Shown piece by piece: positions 6,709 to 16,341 of a DNA stretch of 20,330 bases. The translations under genes and the position numbers were made by a program. The DNA is taken from positions 1 to 20,330 of the IMG/VR virus record IMGVR_UViG_3300020438_000364; one strand, written 5' to 3'. Under the pieces are notes generated by a model that saw only the letters and a list, made by a program, of their open reading frames with translations, made no database searches and was not told where the DNA came from. Position 1 is the first letter of the stretch. Every line of letters starts with the position of its first letter. The DNA comes from a virus.

Positions 6709-9288
6709 TTATCGCCTCAAAGGATTATTAAAGGAATTCATTATCGAAACAGCAGTCTTAAATATATTAGCAGAAGATCTAACACTCGCATTACCACCCG
6801 ATGATTGAGCTCTATAAACATCAGTTGTTGCTTTCATTGTACCTTGAATAAATGCTCTATTCTTTGCATTGGATTCTTCTACTGCTAATACTGCTTTCTG
6901 CATAATTTCAACACCTTTGCTATTTAACAACTCTCTTGCTTCGCTACGTTCACGCATTACCTTTTGAAGACTACGTTCCTTTTCTTTTTGTTGGGCATTC
7001 ATTTTCTTCTTCTTATTTTTATCTTGATTTACCTTTGCTTTAGCACCAACACCCTTACCACCAGTACTTCCACCACCAAAAGCTGCAAATATATTACTCA
7101 TTCCACCAAGACCAGGTTTCTTTAAACCTCCTGGACCCTTTCCACCAAACATACTTGATACTTTTTCTAAGATACCTTCTTTCATTATAGATCCTTTATC
7201 TCCACCAAATATACCACCCATACCACCACCACCTTTACCTCTAAGCATATCCATCATAACTCCACCTTTAGCACCAGTAATCTTACCTGTTTGATATTGA
7301 TTCATCAATCCCATAAGAGACTTAGCATATGCTGGATCTGTAGCATATCCTTCACTCATAAGCATTTTCGCTGCTTCACCCGCACTACCAGCATTATTAA
7401 CACCTTTAAATCCTTTATAATCCTTATACCATAAATTTACAAGATTGTCGATAGATTCTTTAGGACTATTAAAATTCCTAAACTTAGCAGATCCCTTTAC
7501 CTCTTGACCATTGAAAAACTCAGTTGTTGGTGTTACAACTCCATCCTGACTAGCAGTTGCCTTCATACCAAAATAATTATTCTTAGCAGATAATTTAGTT
7601 CCCCAAGCAGATTCTAAAGCAAACTGTGCTGCTACTAACTCTGGATACTTGGCACCTGATTGCCTTGCCATTTTCAGTATCTTTGACCATTTTTGTTGAT
7701 TACTTCCCATAATACCACCAGGAGTATTACCACCTAATATACCGTCTCTACCTTTTCTAGATGGAGTAAACAATCCACCAGTATCAAATCCTGGAAGAGC
7801 AAATCCCTTTGATCTAGCATCCTTCATCTTCCTAGATGTAAGACTGCCATCTTTTGCTGTTGCAGCATTAGAAAGTGGTATTACATATCCATCATTTGAT
7901 CCAGGTTTTCTAGCAATATATTCTGTACCGTGTCCAATAAAGGAAGTAGGTCCACCTTTTGACATCGCAACAGGATATCCAGAATTCGGACCTTGAATTA
8001 AACCACCACTTTCTCTTTCTTTCAGTTTGAATAAATTAGTAAACCAATTACCACCTTTCTTTTTATCTGAGCTGTCAGTAATGGAACTAATTGTATTTGT
8101 TACTTTATCCATTCCTCCTAGAGCATCCTTAAAAGTATCTGATGCCTTAGTTAATTTTCCACCAAAAATTTTATCAAATCCTGAGAATAATGAACTCTTA
8201 GCATCTTCTTCAGTCTGTTTGAAACTGTCTCTAGTCTTATCAGCAAGTACCTTTGCATCAGTTATACCAGTAATTTTTCCAACAATATCTACATCATCCT
8301 TTTTCTTATCTCTCTGGAATAATTTCTTCCACCAAGATACAGCTTCTCCTTTATCTGTATTGTTACTTGTAGTTTTCTCTTTATCAGTATTTTTATTTGA
8401 TCCTGCAGTACCTTCATCATATCCCTTATCACCAGGCAACTTACCACTCTCATCCATTTGAGCATCTAATGTTCCATCTGCTGCAGCGTTAGGGAATAAC
8501 CCCTCCATCATACCCCAAAGTACAGTAGCACTTAATGTAACACCACCAAGTTTTCTACCAAATCCAGCTAATCTACCCTTTCGTTTTAATAGTGTCTTAT
8601 GACTTCTTTTGAGATTAGTATTAAACATCCTAAGCACACCACTGAATGCTTGAAGTGTTTTAACAGGATTTAAGAGGAACCCAATTCCAGTCATGGCTCC
8701 CCATACGGCTGCGAACCGTATCATCACTGATGCAAATCCCTTTAATCGTTCCCACCAAGTTGCATCATCTTTAAGCATCTCATAGAGACCGTCAAGAGCT
8801 CCCCCAACAGTCCATTTAGCAAATTTAGTTAATACTTTAAATATTTTATGTAAGACTTCAACAGTCTTCTGAATTGCTTTTTGATTTTTTGGATCTGATA
8901 ACCATTTTAAAGCAGGTCTTATAACAAACCACTTAAACAAACCACCAAAAAGACCAAGTAAACTTTCTAAAAATCCCTTAACTTTAAATGTTTTAACCGC
9001 TAAGAGCATTTTCTTAAACGGTTTTACTTTTGGATCACCATAACTAGGTTTAAATGCCTTTAATCGTTTCTTTTGTTCAGCATTTAACTTACTATATTGT
9101 ATTTTCTTTAAATCTGTTACAACCTTAGCAATACCATTAACAACCAATCCAAGGTTATTCATTGCAGAAGTAGTCTGAGACATACCTTCTGCTATTTTTT
9201 GCACCTCTGGACTATCGGATGAAGATGCTGTTGATTTAGCATTAACAAACTTATAGAGATTAATTTTAGAATTCTTTTTAACAGTCAT
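6709..9288 (-). CDS. Tail protein with glucosaminidase domain, tape-measure-like N-terminus (859 aa)
   Basis: This large virion protein combines a tape-measure-like N-terminus with a peptidoglycan hydrolase. Residues 104-223 are hydrophobic and helical (FLESLLGLFGGLFKWFVI, then a GFLLNPVKTLQAF end) and align with the neighbouring 917-aa protein. Residues 270-330 are Asp/Lys/Asn-rich linker. Residues about 535-665 form a FlgJ-type glucosaminidase domain (PF01832 family): FALESAWGTKL with catalytic Glu559, NNYFGMKA at 570-577, and GYATDPAYAKSLMGL at the end. The C-terminus is Gly-rich, then strongly basic and helical (about 735-800). It would cut the host wall during infection, replacing the lysozyme missing from gp5. 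The ATG follows the previous stop directly (TAAATG). Confidence 0.85.
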   Translation of the reverse strand: MTVKKNSKINLYKFVNAKSTASSSDSPEVQKIAEGMSQTTSAMNNLGLVVNGIAKVVTDLKKIQYSKLNAEQKKRLKAFKPSYGDPKVKPFKKMLLAVKTFKVKGFLESLLGLFGGLFKWFVIRPALKWLSDPKNQKAIQKTVEVLHKIFKVLTKFAKWTVGGALDGLYEMLKDDATWWERLKGFASVMIRFAAVWGAMTGIGFLLNPVKTLQAFSGVLRMFNTNLKRSHKTLLKRKGRLAGFGRKLGGVTLSATVLWGMMEGLFPNAAADGTLDAQMDESGKLPGDKGYDEGTAGSNKNTDKEKTTSNNTDKGEAVSWWKKLFQRDKKKDDVDIVGKITGITDAKVLADKTRDSFKQTEEDAKSSLFSGFDKIFGGKLTKASDTFKDALGGMDKVTNTISSITDSSDKKKGGNWFTNLFKLKERESGGLIQGPNSGYPVAMSKGGPTSFIGHGTEYIARKPGSNDGYVIPLSNAATAKDGSLTSRKMKDARSKGFALPGFDTGGLFTPSRKGRDGILGGNTPGGIMGSNQQKWSKILKMARQSGAKYPELVAAQFALESAWGTKLSAKNNYFGMKATASQDGVVTPTTEFFNGQEVKGSAKFRNFNSPKESIDNLVNLWYKDYKGFKGVNNAGSAGEAAKMLMSEGYATDPAYAKSLMGLMNQYQTGKITGAKGGVMMDMLRGKGGGGMGGIFGGDKGSIMKEGILEKVSSMFGGKGPGGLKKPGLGGMSNIFAAFGGGSTGGKGVGAKAKVNQDKNKKKKMNAQQKEKERSLQKVMRERSEARELLNSKGVEIMQKAVLAVEESNAKNRAFIQGTMKATTDVYRAQSSGGNASVRSSANIFKTAVSIMNSFNNPLRR

Positions 9289-12042
9289 TTATAATCCCAT
9301 TCTAGTTGATAAACTTGTCCAAGCACCACCAGTATCTATCCTTGCGTTATTATTTATTGCCTTTGGATCAGGTATTGGTGCCACTAAGATTTTCTCTATA
9401 ATTACTGGAACACCTTGAATATCAAAATCTCCAATCTGTAACATAGCTTGTTTCTCAGAACTTCCACCTGCTCCAAAAATATCAGCATAACTATCATAAA
9501 CCCCAAAGATTTGAGGATCAACTCCTGCTTGAGCAGCAAATCCTTCAAGACCACTTCTTATATCACCACCTGATAATCCCATAAAACCTTGATACAATTC
9601 ACCTAATCCAGCAGTATCTGCAATACCACCTATAAATGCTGCTGGACTAAAGTTTCCACTAACCAAAGATCCAACACCAGGCAAATCAGATAGTCCAGGA
9701 ATATTTGCAAGAGCAGATCCAACACCAGGAATTGATCCTAATATTCCAGATAATCCCATAGCATCTATCTGTGCTCCAAATCCTTTAAGAGCACCTTCCA
9801 TAGCAGTACCCTCCAATGCAACTCCCATAGCACCAGTTATATTTCCAGATATCAATTCCTGTCCTATTTTTCCGATCTTACTATCCATAATATTATTCCA
9901 AGCATTATTAATAGGTCCAAAGAAGTCCCCAATTTGTTTATTAATGCCAGCAAATGTTTCTGTCCATATATCACCAGCAGCACCCCAGAGACTCATAATA
10001 GCACCTAAAGGATTACCATTTGCTAATGCTGCAAAACCTTTTATTCCATTAATCATTGGAGCTAACCATGCAGCACCAGGGAACATATAGGGCAATGCTG
10101 TCATCAAGATCTGCCCGAAAGGAGAATTTACAACATCCTGAACTACATTTCCAACAGTATTAACAACACCAGTTATACCATCCCATATACCCTTACCAAC
10201 ACTCTTAACACCATCCCACAAACCACTGAAGAACTTACCAATTCCTGCCTGTGGCACACCATCTTGAGGTCTTGGAACACCGTCTTTACCTGTGCCATTT
10301 ACCGAACCCATTATTGATTGGATTAATCCACCAGGATCACCAACCTTAGACATAGCATCTTGTGCTAAGGATGATAGACCTTTTAATTGACCACTAATTG
10401 AACTTAAACCCTTTTCTTCCCACCCAAGTATTTTATCACCAACATTGGGTAAAATACGAGCAAGTAAATAAGCATCAAGTGCTGTTCCAGCTATGATTAA
10501 TGGTACACCGATACCGCCAGCACCAGCTGTGGCATAACCAACAAGTTCTAAAACACCTGCAATTGTTTCTAAAACACCTCCAACATTATCTCCTGCTGCG
10601 AATGACATACCAGCAAAACCTAAGTTTGCTAATCCACCAACTAAGGGAAGAACAGATGCAGCACGTTTACCCCATGCCTTACCTGACTTAGCGACGGATT
10701 TCATATTTATCCCTCTAGAACCCAGAGCCTCCAACGTTTCTTTTATGATAGGAGCCTTCTTAAAGAGATTCATGAAACTATCACCAAACCCTTGCATCCT
10801 CTTAACGAAAGGTTGAAGTGCTTCTCCTATAGGATTAAGGAACTTTGCTTGTATCCCATCCATCGTTTTCTTTGGAAGAGACTTTAAATTATCAACACCC
10901 TGACCTACCCAAGACTGTGCTGCTTTATACTTTGCAGATGCACCTTCTGCTATAAATTTACCAAATTTCTTTAACGACTCTGCAGCCTTACCACCATATT
11001 TTAGAGTATTCTGTTTAGTTATCTCTCCCCAATTACCAAGTGTCTTACCAATATTTTTAAAAATATTATCGCCTTGTCCAACTAACTTCCCACCTTTAAT
11101 TCCTTGATCAAATAGACCTTCTAACCCTGCTCCACCTCTTCTTACTACTCTTAATTTATCACCAAGATCAGCAGTTCCTTCAATAAACTTGGAATATGAA
11201 TTATTGAAACGAGAAAGTTGTGCAGGTGTTTTAGTTTTCTTTTGCCAAAACTTCCACCATTGCTTGCCTTTTACTTTCGGTGTTTTAGGTTTTTTAAGTT
11301 TACCTTTGGGTTTTTTACCATCTATATCAGGTGGACCCCAATTAAATATCCAATCTAATACACCTAAAATATCAGTTATTAAAGAAAATGGGTTCATTAG
11401 GTACTTTAAACCCGTGATCCCGATTAATATTTTTCCTAGTCCACTTATCCTCTGGAAAAAATCAGATTTTGTACCATCTGTATTTTCACCAAAAAATGCT
11501 TGCTTAAACCCATCAACAAGATTATCTTTGACTAGAAATTTACCAAAACCATAGAGTTTAGTAAAAACTACATCAAGTTTATGGATAAATGTCTCAATCT
11601 TTGTAAAATTACTATCATCCGATGCCCATTTCAATAACTCTCGCATAGCAAGAGTAGCACCTAAATTAACTAAGAATTTTCCTATAGGACCAAGGAAAGT
11701 ATCTAACCATTTAAAATTATCTAAAAAAGACTTCTTTTCTTTACTATCAGGTTTTCTTGCTTTAACCTTCTTTTTACCAGCAATCTTTTCTAATTCTGTT
11801 AACTCTTCAGCTTGCTGATCCGCATCTCTTCTCGCTTTTCTTCTTTCCCACTTTTCTCTTAGTTTATCATTTTTAACAGAAGCGAGACCAATAGATTCTA
11901 TATCTCTAACAATACCACTAAGACCTTTCATTGTCTTAGTTAGACCAGTTACTGAGGTATATTGTATATTCGCAGCAGATATTATGGGTGACGAATCATC
12001 GCTACCCCCTCCTAGAAATTTTTTAGTAAATGCTGGTGCCAC
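9289..12042 (-). CDS. Putative tape measure protein (917 aa)
   Basis: This is likely the tail tape measure, in the position of T4 gp29, setting tail length. The N-terminus holds a charged helix (DKLREKWERRKARRDADQQ). A hydrophobic helical block at 105-235 follows and is shared with the 859-aa neighbour. A Lys/Pro/Gly linker comes at about 236-275, and amphipathic helices at 280-460. Strongly hydrophobic, membrane-like segments lie near 470-540 (VLPLVGGLANLGFAGMSFAA), and the C-terminal third is long and Gly/Ala/Ile-rich. If fully helical, 917 residues span roughly 138 nm, which suits a cyanomyovirus tail. It starts with GTG at 12042, preceded by AAAGG. The ORF encoding the frameshifted gp26 extension ends 3 nt before it. 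Confidence 0.65.
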   Translation of the reverse strand: MAPAFTKKFLGGGSDDSSPIISAANIQYTSVTGLTKTMKGLSGIVRDIESIGLASVKNDKLREKWERRKARRDADQQAEELTELEKIAGKKKVKARKPDSKEKKSFLDNFKWLDTFLGPIGKFLVNLGATLAMRELLKWASDDSNFTKIETFIHKLDVVFTKLYGFGKFLVKDNLVDGFKQAFFGENTDGTKSDFFQRISGLGKILIGITGLKYLMNPFSLITDILGVLDWIFNWGPPDIDGKKPKGKLKKPKTPKVKGKQWWKFWQKKTKTPAQLSRFNNSYSKFIEGTADLGDKLRVVRRGGAGLEGLFDQGIKGGKLVGQGDNIFKNIGKTLGNWGEITKQNTLKYGGKAAESLKKFGKFIAEGASAKYKAAQSWVGQGVDNLKSLPKKTMDGIQAKFLNPIGEALQPFVKRMQGFGDSFMNLFKKAPIIKETLEALGSRGINMKSVAKSGKAWGKRAASVLPLVGGLANLGFAGMSFAAGDNVGGVLETIAGVLELVGYATAGAGGIGVPLIIAGTALDAYLLARILPNVGDKILGWEEKGLSSISGQLKGLSSLAQDAMSKVGDPGGLIQSIMGSVNGTGKDGVPRPQDGVPQAGIGKFFSGLWDGVKSVGKGIWDGITGVVNTVGNVVQDVVNSPFGQILMTALPYMFPGAAWLAPMINGIKGFAALANGNPLGAIMSLWGAAGDIWTETFAGINKQIGDFFGPINNAWNNIMDSKIGKIGQELISGNITGAMGVALEGTAMEGALKGFGAQIDAMGLSGILGSIPGVGSALANIPGLSDLPGVGSLVSGNFSPAAFIGGIADTAGLGELYQGFMGLSGGDIRSGLEGFAAQAGVDPQIFGVYDSYADIFGAGGSSEKQAMLQIGDFDIQGVPVIIEKILVAPIPDPKAINNNARIDTGGAWTSLSTRMGL
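9351..9357 (-). promoter_or_regulatory. Possible late promoter motif inside the 917-aa gene
   Basis: The minus strand reads AATAAATA near the end of the tape-measure gene, 63 nt before the ATG of the glucosaminidase gene. The sequence match is good but the spacing is longer than at the other late units, so this may be chance in AT-rich coding sequence. Confidence 0.3.
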
Positions 12043-12045
12043 TAC

Positions 12046-12246
12046 TTAACCTTTTGCTGCTTGTTGCTCTTTTGCTCTTCTTTCTTCTTCTTTTAAGAAA
12101 TTAATTAAAAGATTCATATAAATCTCCTTTTCCCAAGGCATCAAATTTTCAATGTGGTCAATATCCCATTTATGGTGGTGTATTAACGCAAAATTGGTTT
12201 CATAGTAAGCTTGAAGATTTTGATGGAGAAGAGCTATGCGAAAAAA
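12046..12246 (-). CDS. -1 frameshift extension of gp26 (tail chaperone downstream part)
   Basis: This reading frame has no usable start codon. It opens after a TGA only a few codons before the slippery site, with no ATG, GTG or TTG between them. It continues 64 codons past the slip to TAA at 12048-12046. The peptide is clearly protein-like: ALLHQNLQAYYETNFALIHH, then HKWDIDHIENLMPWEKEIYM and a Glu/Lys/Arg/Gln-rich tail. Joined to the first 235 residues of gp26 it gives a 299-aa fusion. The layout (short protein, frameshifted long form, then tape measure) is that of the lambda G and GT tail assembly chaperones. In T4 the neighbouring gene is 51, whose role is in hub assembly. Confidence 0.8.
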   Translation of the reverse strand, partial: FFRIALLHQNLQAYYETNFALIHHHKWDIDHIENLMPWEKEIYMNLLINFLKEEERRAKEQQAAKG

Positions 12247-12944
12247 CTTGCTAGACCCTCTAGAGTTACATCACTTTCAACTTTAGTGCCAGGATTGGTT
12301 ACCTTAACAGTATGTGAAAGTTTAGGCATGGTTTCAAAGAAATCCTGAACCTTTTTAAACTGTTCAGAAGTCAATTGATCCAAAAACTCCAGCATCTCTT
12401 CTTTTGGTGTGTCTAAAGCATCGTATACTTCTTCCTCATCAGCAATTGATTTTATACAACTGGCTGCCATATCAAAAATCTGATCAACACCTGGTTCCTC
12501 ACCTTGGAAATTCATTTTAACAAAAGAATCCAAACTTGGATAATTCATTGTTATTATGATTTTCTCATCTAATTTAATATCTTTCTTGTGTCCTTTGGTT
12601 TTAACAACCTTAATATCAGACAAAGGAATATTTACTGGAACTTGAGTTTCGTTGTCATCTGGACAAGTAACGCTAACCTCAACACTTTCACCAACTGATT
12701 TAGTACGAATTTGTAAAAACAAAAATTCAATATCGAAGGTAGGCAATTCATCAACGTCATGTATATCACTACATGCGACAATAATATCTTTAATTGCTGC
12801 AACAATATCTTCTTGTTGTCCTGTCTCAGTTGCTAAGAGAAGTAGTTTTTCTTCTTTAACGAGGAATGGTCTATAATTCACGGTTCTGCCGTCTGAAGGC
12901 AGTTTCAATTTGTACTTAGGTACATTTAATTTAGGTAACGACAT
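12234..12944 (-). CDS. 26: Baseplate/tail assembly protein gp26-like (236 aa)
   Basis: This matches the T4 gp26 family (PF12322-type T4 baseplate protein). It opens SLPKLNVPKYKLKLPSDGRT, has the helix KEEKLLLLATETGQ, and has DELPTFDIEFLFLQIRTKSV, the most conserved block of the family. The middle is a beta domain (VEVSVTCPDDNETQVPVNIP) and the C-terminal part is helical (DQLTSEQFKKVQDFF). T4 gp26 has 208 residues. It probably acts as an assembly chaperone for the hub and tape measure instead of being a main virion part. The stop TAG follows a slippery TTTTTTC one codon earlier, so a portion of ribosomes should make a 299-aa form. Two late-promoter motifs precede it. Confidence 0.85.
   Translation of the reverse strand: MSLPKLNVPKYKLKLPSDGRTVNYRPFLVKEEKLLLLATETGQQEDIVAAIKDIIVACSDIHDVDELPTFDIEFLFLQIRTKSVGESVEVSVTCPDDNETQVPVNIPLSDIKVVKTKGHKKDIKLDEKIIITMNYPSLDSFVKMNFQGEEPGVDQIFDMAASCIKSIADEEEVYDALDTPKEEMLEFLDQLTSEQFKKVQDFFETMPKLSHTVKVTNPGTKVESDVTLEGLASFFA
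12240..12246 (-). other. Slippery heptamer TTTTTTC for -1 ribosomal frameshift
   Basis: On the minus strand the heptamer is T-TTT-TTC read in the gp26 frame, a perfect X-XXY-YYZ slip site. Both tRNAs would re-pair as TTT-TTT in the -1 frame. The zero-frame stop TAG follows one codon later (GCA TAG). Confidence 0.8.
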
Positions 12945-12976: not shown

Positions 12977-12983
12977 TATTTAG
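12977..12983 (-). promoter_or_regulatory. Late promoter motif CTAAATA, distal, upstream of gp26
   Basis: The minus strand reads TTCTAAATACTACC, with the motif overlapping the stop codon of the gp54 gene and lying 33 nt before the gp26 ATG, the spacing most common in this window. It is 11 nt, one helical turn, from the proximal copy. Confidence 0.6.
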
Positions 12984-13843
12984 AAAACATTTAACATAGA
13001 TTGGATAGTTCCTGTAATACCTGCCCAAACTCCAAGACCATCGCTAGCTGGATTGATACTACCGTCTCCAGGAATTGAAATAGCACTTCTCACACCTGGA
13101 TCATCAAACTCATCTTCAACCCAAAATCTATACCTTTCATAGAAGAACCCAACAGTCATAGACATAGTTCTTGCTTTTTCATTATTTAATTGAATAGATC
13201 CAATATTATATGGAAATGCCTTTCTCAACTCCCATGCAGCAGTGCATTTATATTGTTTTGGCCAGATATAATTTGCTTCATCGTATTCTGTACCATACAA
13301 ATTTCTCATTGCTTGTTTAATCTCATTAATATTTGATACATCTCCTCCTCCACCTCTTTCCCACTTGTATATCATAATTCTTGGAGAAACATAATGATCA
13401 TAATGCTCTACATACTGGTTAGAATCTGGTGAAAGTAATGACATCCACCTTTCAAAATAATTTCTTGTATGCTGTGATCTTGGCATAAGGAACGTTGCAT
13501 TTATCTGACTATATGAAGTTCCAGTACCATACTTATAAGCAGATCCAACATTAACAACCTGACCAGTGGTCAACTGCTTACTTGGTAAATTAACTGTCTT
13601 GCAGTAAAAATTTAAGCAGTTCTGCAACTTACCTATTTCTGATGTAAAAATAGTAGAAGTTTGTCCTATAGTACTGGTATTCCCAACACCAAGTTGTTCG
13701 GTACTTCTAAGAATAGTAGGTGTTCCTATATGGAACGAAAATAAATTGGTAAAACTTGGTGCATAATTCCTATCCTTCAGCGAAAACGATTGAAACGCTT
13801 GAAGAGATGGATACCTAGCACCGTCTTTTCCTGGAATTGCCAT
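12980..13843 (-). CDS. 54: Baseplate tail tube initiator gp54-like (287 aa)
   Basis: This is the likely gp54, which caps the baseplate hub and starts tail-tube polymerisation. It has the mixed beta structure of a tube-like fold: SFTNLFSFHIGTPTILRSTE, LNFYCKTVNLPSKQLTTGQV, then YSQINATFLMPRSQHTRNYF and FERWMSLLSP, a pattern shared by tube and initiator proteins. The C-terminal half has QYVEHYDHYVSPRIMIYKWE and a tube-like ARTMSMTVGFFYERYRFWVE. T4 gp54 has 320 residues. The ATG overlaps the gp4 stop as TAATG. gp48, its partner in T4, lies just beyond gp4 on the opposite strand, which supports the call; a swap of gp48 and gp54 labels is possible but less likely. Confidence 0.75.
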   Translation of the reverse strand: MAIPGKDGARYPSLQAFQSFSLKDRNYAPSFTNLFSFHIGTPTILRSTEQLGVGNTSTIGQTSTIFTSEIGKLQNCLNFYCKTVNLPSKQLTTGQVVNVGSAYKYGTGTSYSQINATFLMPRSQHTRNYFERWMSLLSPDSNQYVEHYDHYVSPRIMIYKWERGGGGDVSNINEIKQAMRNLYGTEYDEANYIWPKQYKCTAAWELRKAFPYNIGSIQLNNEKARTMSMTVGFFYERYRFWVEDEFDDPGVRSAISIPGDGSINPASDGLGVWAGITGTIQSMLNVF

Positions 13844-15405: not shown

Positions 15406-16341
15406 ATGTCTTATTTTAAACAATTACCAAGCGTATACGTTGGAGAAGGTATTAAAGATGATGAGGCATTTAAATACCGTCTCGTAAAAAACATATTCAG
15501 ACGTGTTCAGTTAAGAAACTCTGTAGAGAAATACGTGACAATGTTTGAAAATAGAAGTATAACTCCAGGTCAAAAACCTTCTGATGTTGCTCAGGCAATG
15601 TTGGGTGATCCTCATCTAGATTGGGTTATATTGATTACAAACAATATTACTGATGTATACAGTCAATGGCCAAAAGATGATCAAACACTATATGACTATG
15701 TTGTAGATAAGTATGATCTTGCAGAAGTTGATGGAAACCATCATTACGAAACTAATGAAGTTCTGTATAATGGTAATATTTTCATACAAAAGGGCATTCA
15801 AGTAAATAAGTCATTTCGTGCAATATTACCAGATGGAACAACTAAGACAGAAAGCGAATCTATAACACCAGTATCAAACTTTGAATATGAAACTTGGATA
15901 AATGAGAAAAAAAGACTTATAAGAATACCTCAAACATTCCTAGTAGATAAGATGGTTTCTGAATTTGATGATCTAGTGGCATACTTACCACATAAAGAAT
16001 TAGATGATTTTAATCATAAAAAAACACCCCTGAGTGTTTCTCAGAGGTTCTTAGATACTAGAGGATATATTAGTGCTAGTGTTAGTAGATCAGTTGCTGT
16101 AGGAAATGTAGCATCATACGATAATGGTCCTAGTTCACTTAGCGTAAATCTTCAAACTGCAGCAGGTGTAGCAACATCGACTTCTACTACACCGACTACT
16201 ACATCAACTACGACTAGCACCACATCTTCATCAACCAGTAGTTCTTCATCAAGTTCTAGTTCAAGTAGTAGTTCTTCATCAAGTTCTAGTTCAAGTAGTA
16301 GTTCTTCTTCTGGTTCCTCTGGTAGTTACGGGGGTTACTAA
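15406..16341 (+). CDS. 53: Baseplate wedge protein gp53-like with poly-Ser tail (311 aa)
   Basis: The first 200 residues match gp53 (PF11246-type), the wedge part that bridges the baseplate: FKQLPSVYVGEGIKDDEAFK, VKNIFRRVQLRNSVEKYVTM, and GDPHLDWVILITNNITDVYS, a LysM-containing pattern in T4. T4 gp53 has 196 residues. Here about 110 residues follow, with a short strand region (SVSQRFLDTRGYISASVSRS) and then, from about residue 257, a Ser/Thr tract with 25 serines in a row ending in GSSGSYGGY. Such a tail should be disordered, surface-exposed and flexible. It follows gp48 with a 1-nt gap (TAA A ATG). Loss of a further C-terminal domain after the linker is possible. Confidence 0.8.
   Translation: MSYFKQLPSVYVGEGIKDDEAFKYRLVKNIFRRVQLRNSVEKYVTMFENRSITPGQKPSDVAQAMLGDPHLDWVILITNNITDVYSQWPKDDQTLYDYVVDKYDLAEVDGNHHYETNEVLYNGNIFIQKGIQVNKSFRAILPDGTTKTESESITPVSNFEYETWINEKKRLIRIPQTFLVDKMVSEFDDLVAYLPHKELDDFNHKKTPLSVSQRFLDTRGYISASVSRSVAVGNVASYDNGPSSLSVNLQTAAGVATSTSTTPTTTSTTTSTTSSSTSSSSSSSSSSSSSSSSSSSSSSSSSGSSGSYGGY
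16237..16296 (+). repeat. Tandem 30-bp repeat coding for serine
   Basis: Two exact 30-bp copies (16237-16266 and 16267-16296), each ten Ser codons, are followed by a partial third copy to about 16307. Each unit mixes AGT, TCT and TCA codons in the same order, so the repeat came from duplication of a unit and not from single-codon slippage. It lies in the Ser-rich tail of gp53. Confidence 0.9.

Follow-up and report, generated by a model that had tools for sequence, protein, structure and literature searches.

Probable −1 frameshifting at the end of gp26 and the two predicted forms of a T4-like tail assembly chaperone

The gp26 junction and its reading frames

The DNA considered here is viral and comprises positions 1–20,330 of the IMG/VR record IMGVR_UViG_3300020438_000364; this whole stretch of 20,330 nucleotides is referred to as the window. 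On its minus strand, which carries all the features of the junction, a gene for a gp26-like protein ends GAG GGT CTA GCA AGT TTT TTC GCA TAG, and a further open frame, shifted by −1, runs on from a heptamer just ahead of the stop codon. With high probability, −1 frameshifting at this locus makes two forms of a tail assembly chaperone, the phage being T4-like (cyanomyovirus-type). The features of the junction are as follows.

12234..12944, minus strand: gp26-like protein of 236 residues, the predicted short tail assembly chaperone (TAC-N); matches PF12322 (T4_baseplate) at 3.2e-76 and is usually labelled 'baseplate hub'
12256..12260, minus strand: GAGGG, resembling a Shine–Dalgarno (SD) sequence and ending 9 nucleotides before the heptamer; probable 5' stimulator, judged by codon choice and anti-SD pairing
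12240..12246, minus strand: slippery heptamer T-TTT-TTC in the gp26 frame, identified from the sequence and from T-TTT-TTY in 258 of 258 script-read related loci
12234..12236, minus strand: zero-frame stop TAG, a single codon (GCA) after the slip site; one intervening codon in 227 of the 258 loci
12046..12240, minus strand: −1 frame extension (TAC-C), 64 codons plus TAA; matches phrog_634 at 1e-29 and together with gp26 would form the 299-residue long form (TAC-NC)

A first-pass annotation of this DNA, made from its letters, had placed T-TTT-TTC at 12246–12240 with the stop one codon on, and the coordinates bear this out. Past the slip, the −1 frame reads CGC ATA GCT CTT and stays open for the 64 further codons that had been claimed for it (12240–12049); its TAA (12048–12046) falls 3 nucleotides short of the GTG at 12042 that starts the next gene, the putative tape measure gene, again as annotated. 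Going upstream, the −1 frame meets a stop 10 codons ahead of the first post-slip codon, and the statement that no ATG, GTG or TTG stands between that stop and the slip site proved correct: the earliest possible starts are the TTG and ATG at codons 32–33 after the slip (12144–12139), past half of the conserved extension. The length given for the fusion, 299 residues, likewise holds, and in a profile search the fusion matched phrog_150 at 3e-96. Among the genes of the window, gp26 alone carries an in-frame T-TTT-TTY near its 3' end, namely at codon 233 of 237; the other two in-frame occurrences are at codon 25 of 852 and codon 194 of 918. Stop-codon readthrough was rejected as an explanation because the zero frame beyond the TAG closes after 16 codons.

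Conservation and nucleotide constraint in related phages

A protein search of phage records matched gp26 in 597 records at an E-value of 1e-5 and the extension in 566; in the records listed, the extension matches start at the end of gp26 in the −1 frame, and often bear the label 'gp51' as a gene apart. Viral contigs from four scans, together with annotated phages, gave 263 sequences. A script read 258 non-T4 junctions, of which 191 were distinct, and 69 diverse representatives were retained that were at most 85% identical over 300 nucleotides. Every one of the 258 junctions had an in-frame T-TTT-TTY and a −1 frame open past it. The script sought the heptamer within the last 25 codons; because no non-T4 locus failed it, this conservation is not an effect of search selection. 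The surveyed set includes seven independent contigs whose gp26 is 95–100% identical to that of the window (L008–L014), and the heptamer is intact in each. In a reading by eye of eight more distant phages, seven keep either T-TTT-TTC (nt-1, K566, Ps15, Desulfovibrio 7757 and DSL-LC02) or T-TTT-TTG (the Rhizobium phages RL2RES, L267 near 2498, and RHph_I1_9, L270 near 2498). The heptamer and the unbroken −1 frame span cyanophages and phages of Desulfovibrio, Stenotrophomonas, Rhizobium, Vibrio, Aeromonas and Cronobacter.

Across the surveyed loci the zero-frame stop stands 0, 1, 2, 3 or 8 codons downstream of the slip, while the interval from the slip to a conserved NF motif is nearly gapless (two single-residue gaps among 69 sequences in the first 25 columns). 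Since the slip-to-NF distance is nearly constant and the stop floats, it is the slip, not the stop, that evolution holds in place. No ATG, GTG or TTG precedes codon 18 of the −1 frame in 58 of the 191 distinct junctions, the window's clade included.

The heptamer is also conserved at the level of nucleotides. Seven amino acids (S, N, A, D, T, H and G) are found at the codon ahead of TTT, yet this codon ends in T in 69 of 69 representatives (expected 41.7; log10 P −15.8), and at the second Phe 63 of 69 have TTC, as against 29% TTC among the Phe codons of these genes. Same-codon conservation, scored in pairs with the same residue, peaks exactly at the heptamer's three codons, with ratios of 2.34, 1.71 and 1.44. 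Immediately after the slip, 50% of changes in the −1 frame fall at third positions and 21% at second positions; the −1 frame is therefore translated there, ahead of any start codon in many loci. All of these counts take related phages as independent, so that the constraint is to be read as strong rather than exact. Aligned with its relatives, as the first-pass annotation had proposed for other cyanophages and T4, the junction shows a conserved heptamer and open −1 frame, under a nucleotide constraint beyond anything due to the proteins. A separate observation is that, counting from the slip-site end, the fourth codon is the alanine codon GCG in 17 of 34 loci of the window's clade (alignment A3), against a background of 3%.

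Sequences resembling an SD element stimulate −1 frameshifting when they stand 9–14 nucleotides before the slip (PMC5009743), and the 9-nucleotide spacer of the window is in that range. The Glu codon preceding Gly-Leu is GAG in 37 of 49 cases, against a background of 29%, and the preference for GAG over GAA has a p value of 1.8e-11 in the 69 representatives. When all representatives are taken together, none of 200 synonymous recodings pairs as strongly with the anti-SD sequence over codons −8 to −4. GAGGG probably pairs with 16S rRNA and promotes the backward slip.

A downstream element was found in a sister clade. P-SSM2-like phages have a conserved RNA hairpin of 11–13 base pairs, 5 nucleotides past the heptamer (L003:1504–1534 and relatives, alignment A2). 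In 39 sequences 94.3% of its cells are paired, compared with 27–50% when the pairing is slid, and for 12 of 13 representatives the fold is better than that of 99% of the synonymous recodings. Its codons are unusual: Tyr is TAC in 38 of 39 (background 5.6%), and AGT occurs in 39 of 39 (background 17%). Support for the hairpin comes mainly from codon choice, because just one pair shows a compensatory change. The hairpin also buries an ATG near the annotated start of gp51.

The two predicted chaperone forms and competing explanations

The two predicted forms have counterparts in T4 itself. T4 gp26 (208 residues) and gp51 (249 residues) both match PF12322 (8.8e-64 and 3.9e-52) and match each other (BLASTP 2e-6). 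Residues 3–248 of gp51 match phrog_150 up to column 280, whereas gp26 reaches column 235 only; the profile of the extension aligns with gp51 residues 200–244 (E 1.4e-4) and gives no alignment to gp26. Because both proteins belong to PF12322, are mutually similar and differ in that gp51 alone has the extension, T4 encodes TAC-N and TAC-NC separately. On these sequence similarities, genes 26 and 51 are paralogues, with gene duplication taking the place of the frameshift and gp51 being the in-frame long form. The two genes lie on opposite strands (L002:5803–7229), and matches covering at least 80% of gp51 occur in 1,334 records. The comparison with T4 proposed at the outset bears the interpretation out, with a qualification: the proposed fusion and gp51 are the same protein, which T4 makes from one continuous gene, and T4, with 26 and 51 as separate genes, needs no frameshift. 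The suggestion that gp26 and its extension are the T4-like chaperone equivalent gains from the PF12322 and phrog_150 homology and from the presence of the extension domain in gp51. That homology, the conservation of the junction and its nucleotide constraint support the further proposal that a frameshift joins gp26 to a downstream chaperone domain.

AlphaFold models of gp26 (mixed alpha/beta; predicted local distance difference test score, pLDDT, 86) and of the extension (three helices; pLDDT 83) were used in fold searches. The gp26 model resembles predicted gp26-type proteins from many phages; the extension model gave no match, and a sequence search of solved structures with chaperone and extension returned nothing meaningful.

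The frameshift is very probably real. From the features of the junction we infer slippage in infected cells, together with its efficiency and the chaperone role of the products. Most ribosomes would finish gp26 at the TAG, so that TAC-N, the short form, would be abundant. At TTT-TTC, with Phe-tRNAs occupying the P and A sites, a minority would move one base backwards on T-TTT-TTC and read 64 codons in the −1 frame to give the 299-residue TAC-NC, the helical C-terminal domain existing solely as this extension. If the analogy with lambda G/GT holds, the short form would coat the tape measure protein, whose gene comes next, and tail tube subunits would be brought in by the long form; both forms would leave before the tail is complete.

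Several observations weigh against this account. In the window's clade the strength of anti-SD pairing is borderline, 11 of 200 synonymous recodings being as strong. That an SD-like tetramer is present was rejected as evidence, its frequency being 0.91 where 0.90 is expected from the protein sequence; duplex energy and codon choice replaced the tetramer count as the test, and it is only in strength and in the use of GAG that the element goes beyond expectation. No downstream stimulatory structure was found in the window: a consensus fold computed from 34 members of the clade contained no pair, and window-like junctions fold no better than synonymous recodings. When the gp26 model was compared with solved structures, the tail assembly chaperone of HK97 (gp13, 2OB9) ranked fifth, with an E-value of 1.6 and a target template modelling (TM) score of 0.41, which is not significant. 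Vibrio phage D503 (L263:2297–3253) has no canonical heptamer, and has CTT-TTC and a TAATG overlap instead; it is possible that frameshifting was lost there in favour of a separate start, which looks the more likely arrangement in this one examined relative. Finally, 96 distinct junctions, from about half of the relatives, have ATG, GTG or TTG at codons 1–4 of the −1 frame.

These early start codons bear on the main competing explanation, that the extension forms a small gene of its own, 'gp51', translated by termination and reinitiation at the gp26 stop or close to it, from a standard start in relatives and from ATA (12237–12235) in the window. GenBank records of cyanophages do give a separate coding sequence from the gp26 stop or within a few codons of it, and TAATG or TGATG overlaps occur in Vibrio, Rhizobium and Stenotrophomonas phages. 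The window, however, has no standard start before codon 32, and the position of its ATA reads CTA, GTA or TTA in other members of the clade. Candidate starts at codons 1–4 have an SD match of at least 4 nucleotides in 3% of cases, compared with 39% for gp26 starts, and the P-SSM2-like ATG is enclosed in the conserved hairpin. Conservation of the heptamer and of residues ahead of any start, with a fixed slip and a floating stop, likewise speaks against reinitiation. We therefore consider a separate gene very unlikely for the window, while independent initiation may serve as a second route in relatives with early start codons.

Slippage by the RNA polymerase would give the same fusion without ribosomal frameshifting, since one T added to the six-T run in some mRNAs yields the identical reading frame. 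The runs at these junctions are six or seven T's, which is short for transcriptional slippage, and the codon phase, the TTC preference, the upstream SD-like element and the sister-clade hairpin at ribosomal spacing all point to the ribosome; this explanation seems to us less likely still. Decay of a former gene as the source of the −1 frame, or a sequencing error at the junction, has a negligible probability: no support for either was found, and the seven independent contigs, the family-wide conservation and the coding selection on the −1 frame refute both.

Tail gene neighbourhood and known frameshifting systems

The junction lies in a minus-strand, T4-like tail module that comprises the tail tube gene, gp26, a gene for a 917-residue protein and one for an 859-residue protein with a glucosaminidase domain. 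The genes flanking gp26 are listed here.

12980..13843, minus strand: tail tube-type protein, upstream of the chaperone; matches phrog_45 (tail tube) at 2.2e-53
9289..12042, minus strand: putative tape measure protein of 917 residues, with a GTG start and AAAGG 7 nucleotides upstream; so assigned by its position right after the chaperone and by weak profile matches

The first-pass annotation had likened the order of short protein, frameshifted long form and tape measure to that of lambda. The tail tube gene upstream (phrog_45, 2e-53) and the frameshifted pair agree with the comparison, and the tape measure is putative, from position and profiles. Tape-measure profiles match the 917-residue protein weakly (2e-7 to 7e-7) and rank under stronger phage profiles named 'endolysin', and a comparison with T4 gp29 gave no significant similarity. 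The adjoining large tail genes at 9289–12042 and 6709–9288 have related N-terminal regions (residues 78–234 and 54–223, 30% identity, E 1.6e-7), which suggests that a tape-measure-like protein was duplicated in tandem, a glucosaminidase domain being present in one of the copies. Elsewhere in the window, a baseplate wedge protein ends in a long, low-complexity tail rich in Ser and Thr (16200–16341).

As with lambda G/GT, there is a short product, a −1 frameshifted long product and the order tube protein, chaperone and (here putative) tape measure. The likeness seen is one of layout, and the heptamers differ: G-GGA-AAG in lambda, the U-UUU-UUC type in the window. Frameshifting is reportedly described as conserved in several T4-like groups in the abstract of Vladimirov, Gautam and Davidson (Virology 2022, 566:9–15). 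Of the papers that cite this study, PMC10885494 credits it with the finding that some T4-like phages have a short gene alongside a fused gene that stands apart, and PMC12846349 refers to it for poly-T −1 frameshift signals in the TAC-N genes of T4-like phages. Those chaperones belong to the same family (PF12322/phrog_150) and have a short and a long form, T4 itself having two genes and no frameshift; an earlier review treats T4 as an exception to G-T frameshifting (PMC5009743). Our literature search returned no open paper directly describing a cyanophage chaperone frameshift. The present case is not a discovery in kind, because the T4-like system has already been published (Vladimirov et al. 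2022); the dnaX-like, clade-specific stimulators are, as far as checked, an added detail.

In the E. coli dnaX cassette, too, an SD-like sequence stands 9–14 nucleotides ahead of a slippery heptamer, and its hairpin of the 11-base-pair class shortly downstream is matched in the P-SSM2-like clade but not in that of the window (PMC5009743). The slip sites differ (A-AAA-AAG in dnaX, U-UUU-UUC here), and frameshifting shortens the dnaX product whereas it lengthens that of the chaperone gene. Chaperone genes of cyanophages and other T4-like phages might carry tunable, dnaX-type stimulators around a fixed U-UUU-UUC, with a short/long ratio particular to each clade, the T4 lineage having left frameshifting by duplication into 26 and 51; we hold the arguments for and against this broader proposal to be evenly balanced.

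The P-SSM2-like cyanophages offer a clear candidate stimulatory hairpin that can be tested. For annotation, the 'baseplate hub' gp26 and separate 'gp51' of hundreds of marine phage records would become a single frameshifted tail assembly chaperone. One protein family would then include both routes to a short and a long form: frameshifting and, in T4, gene duplication.

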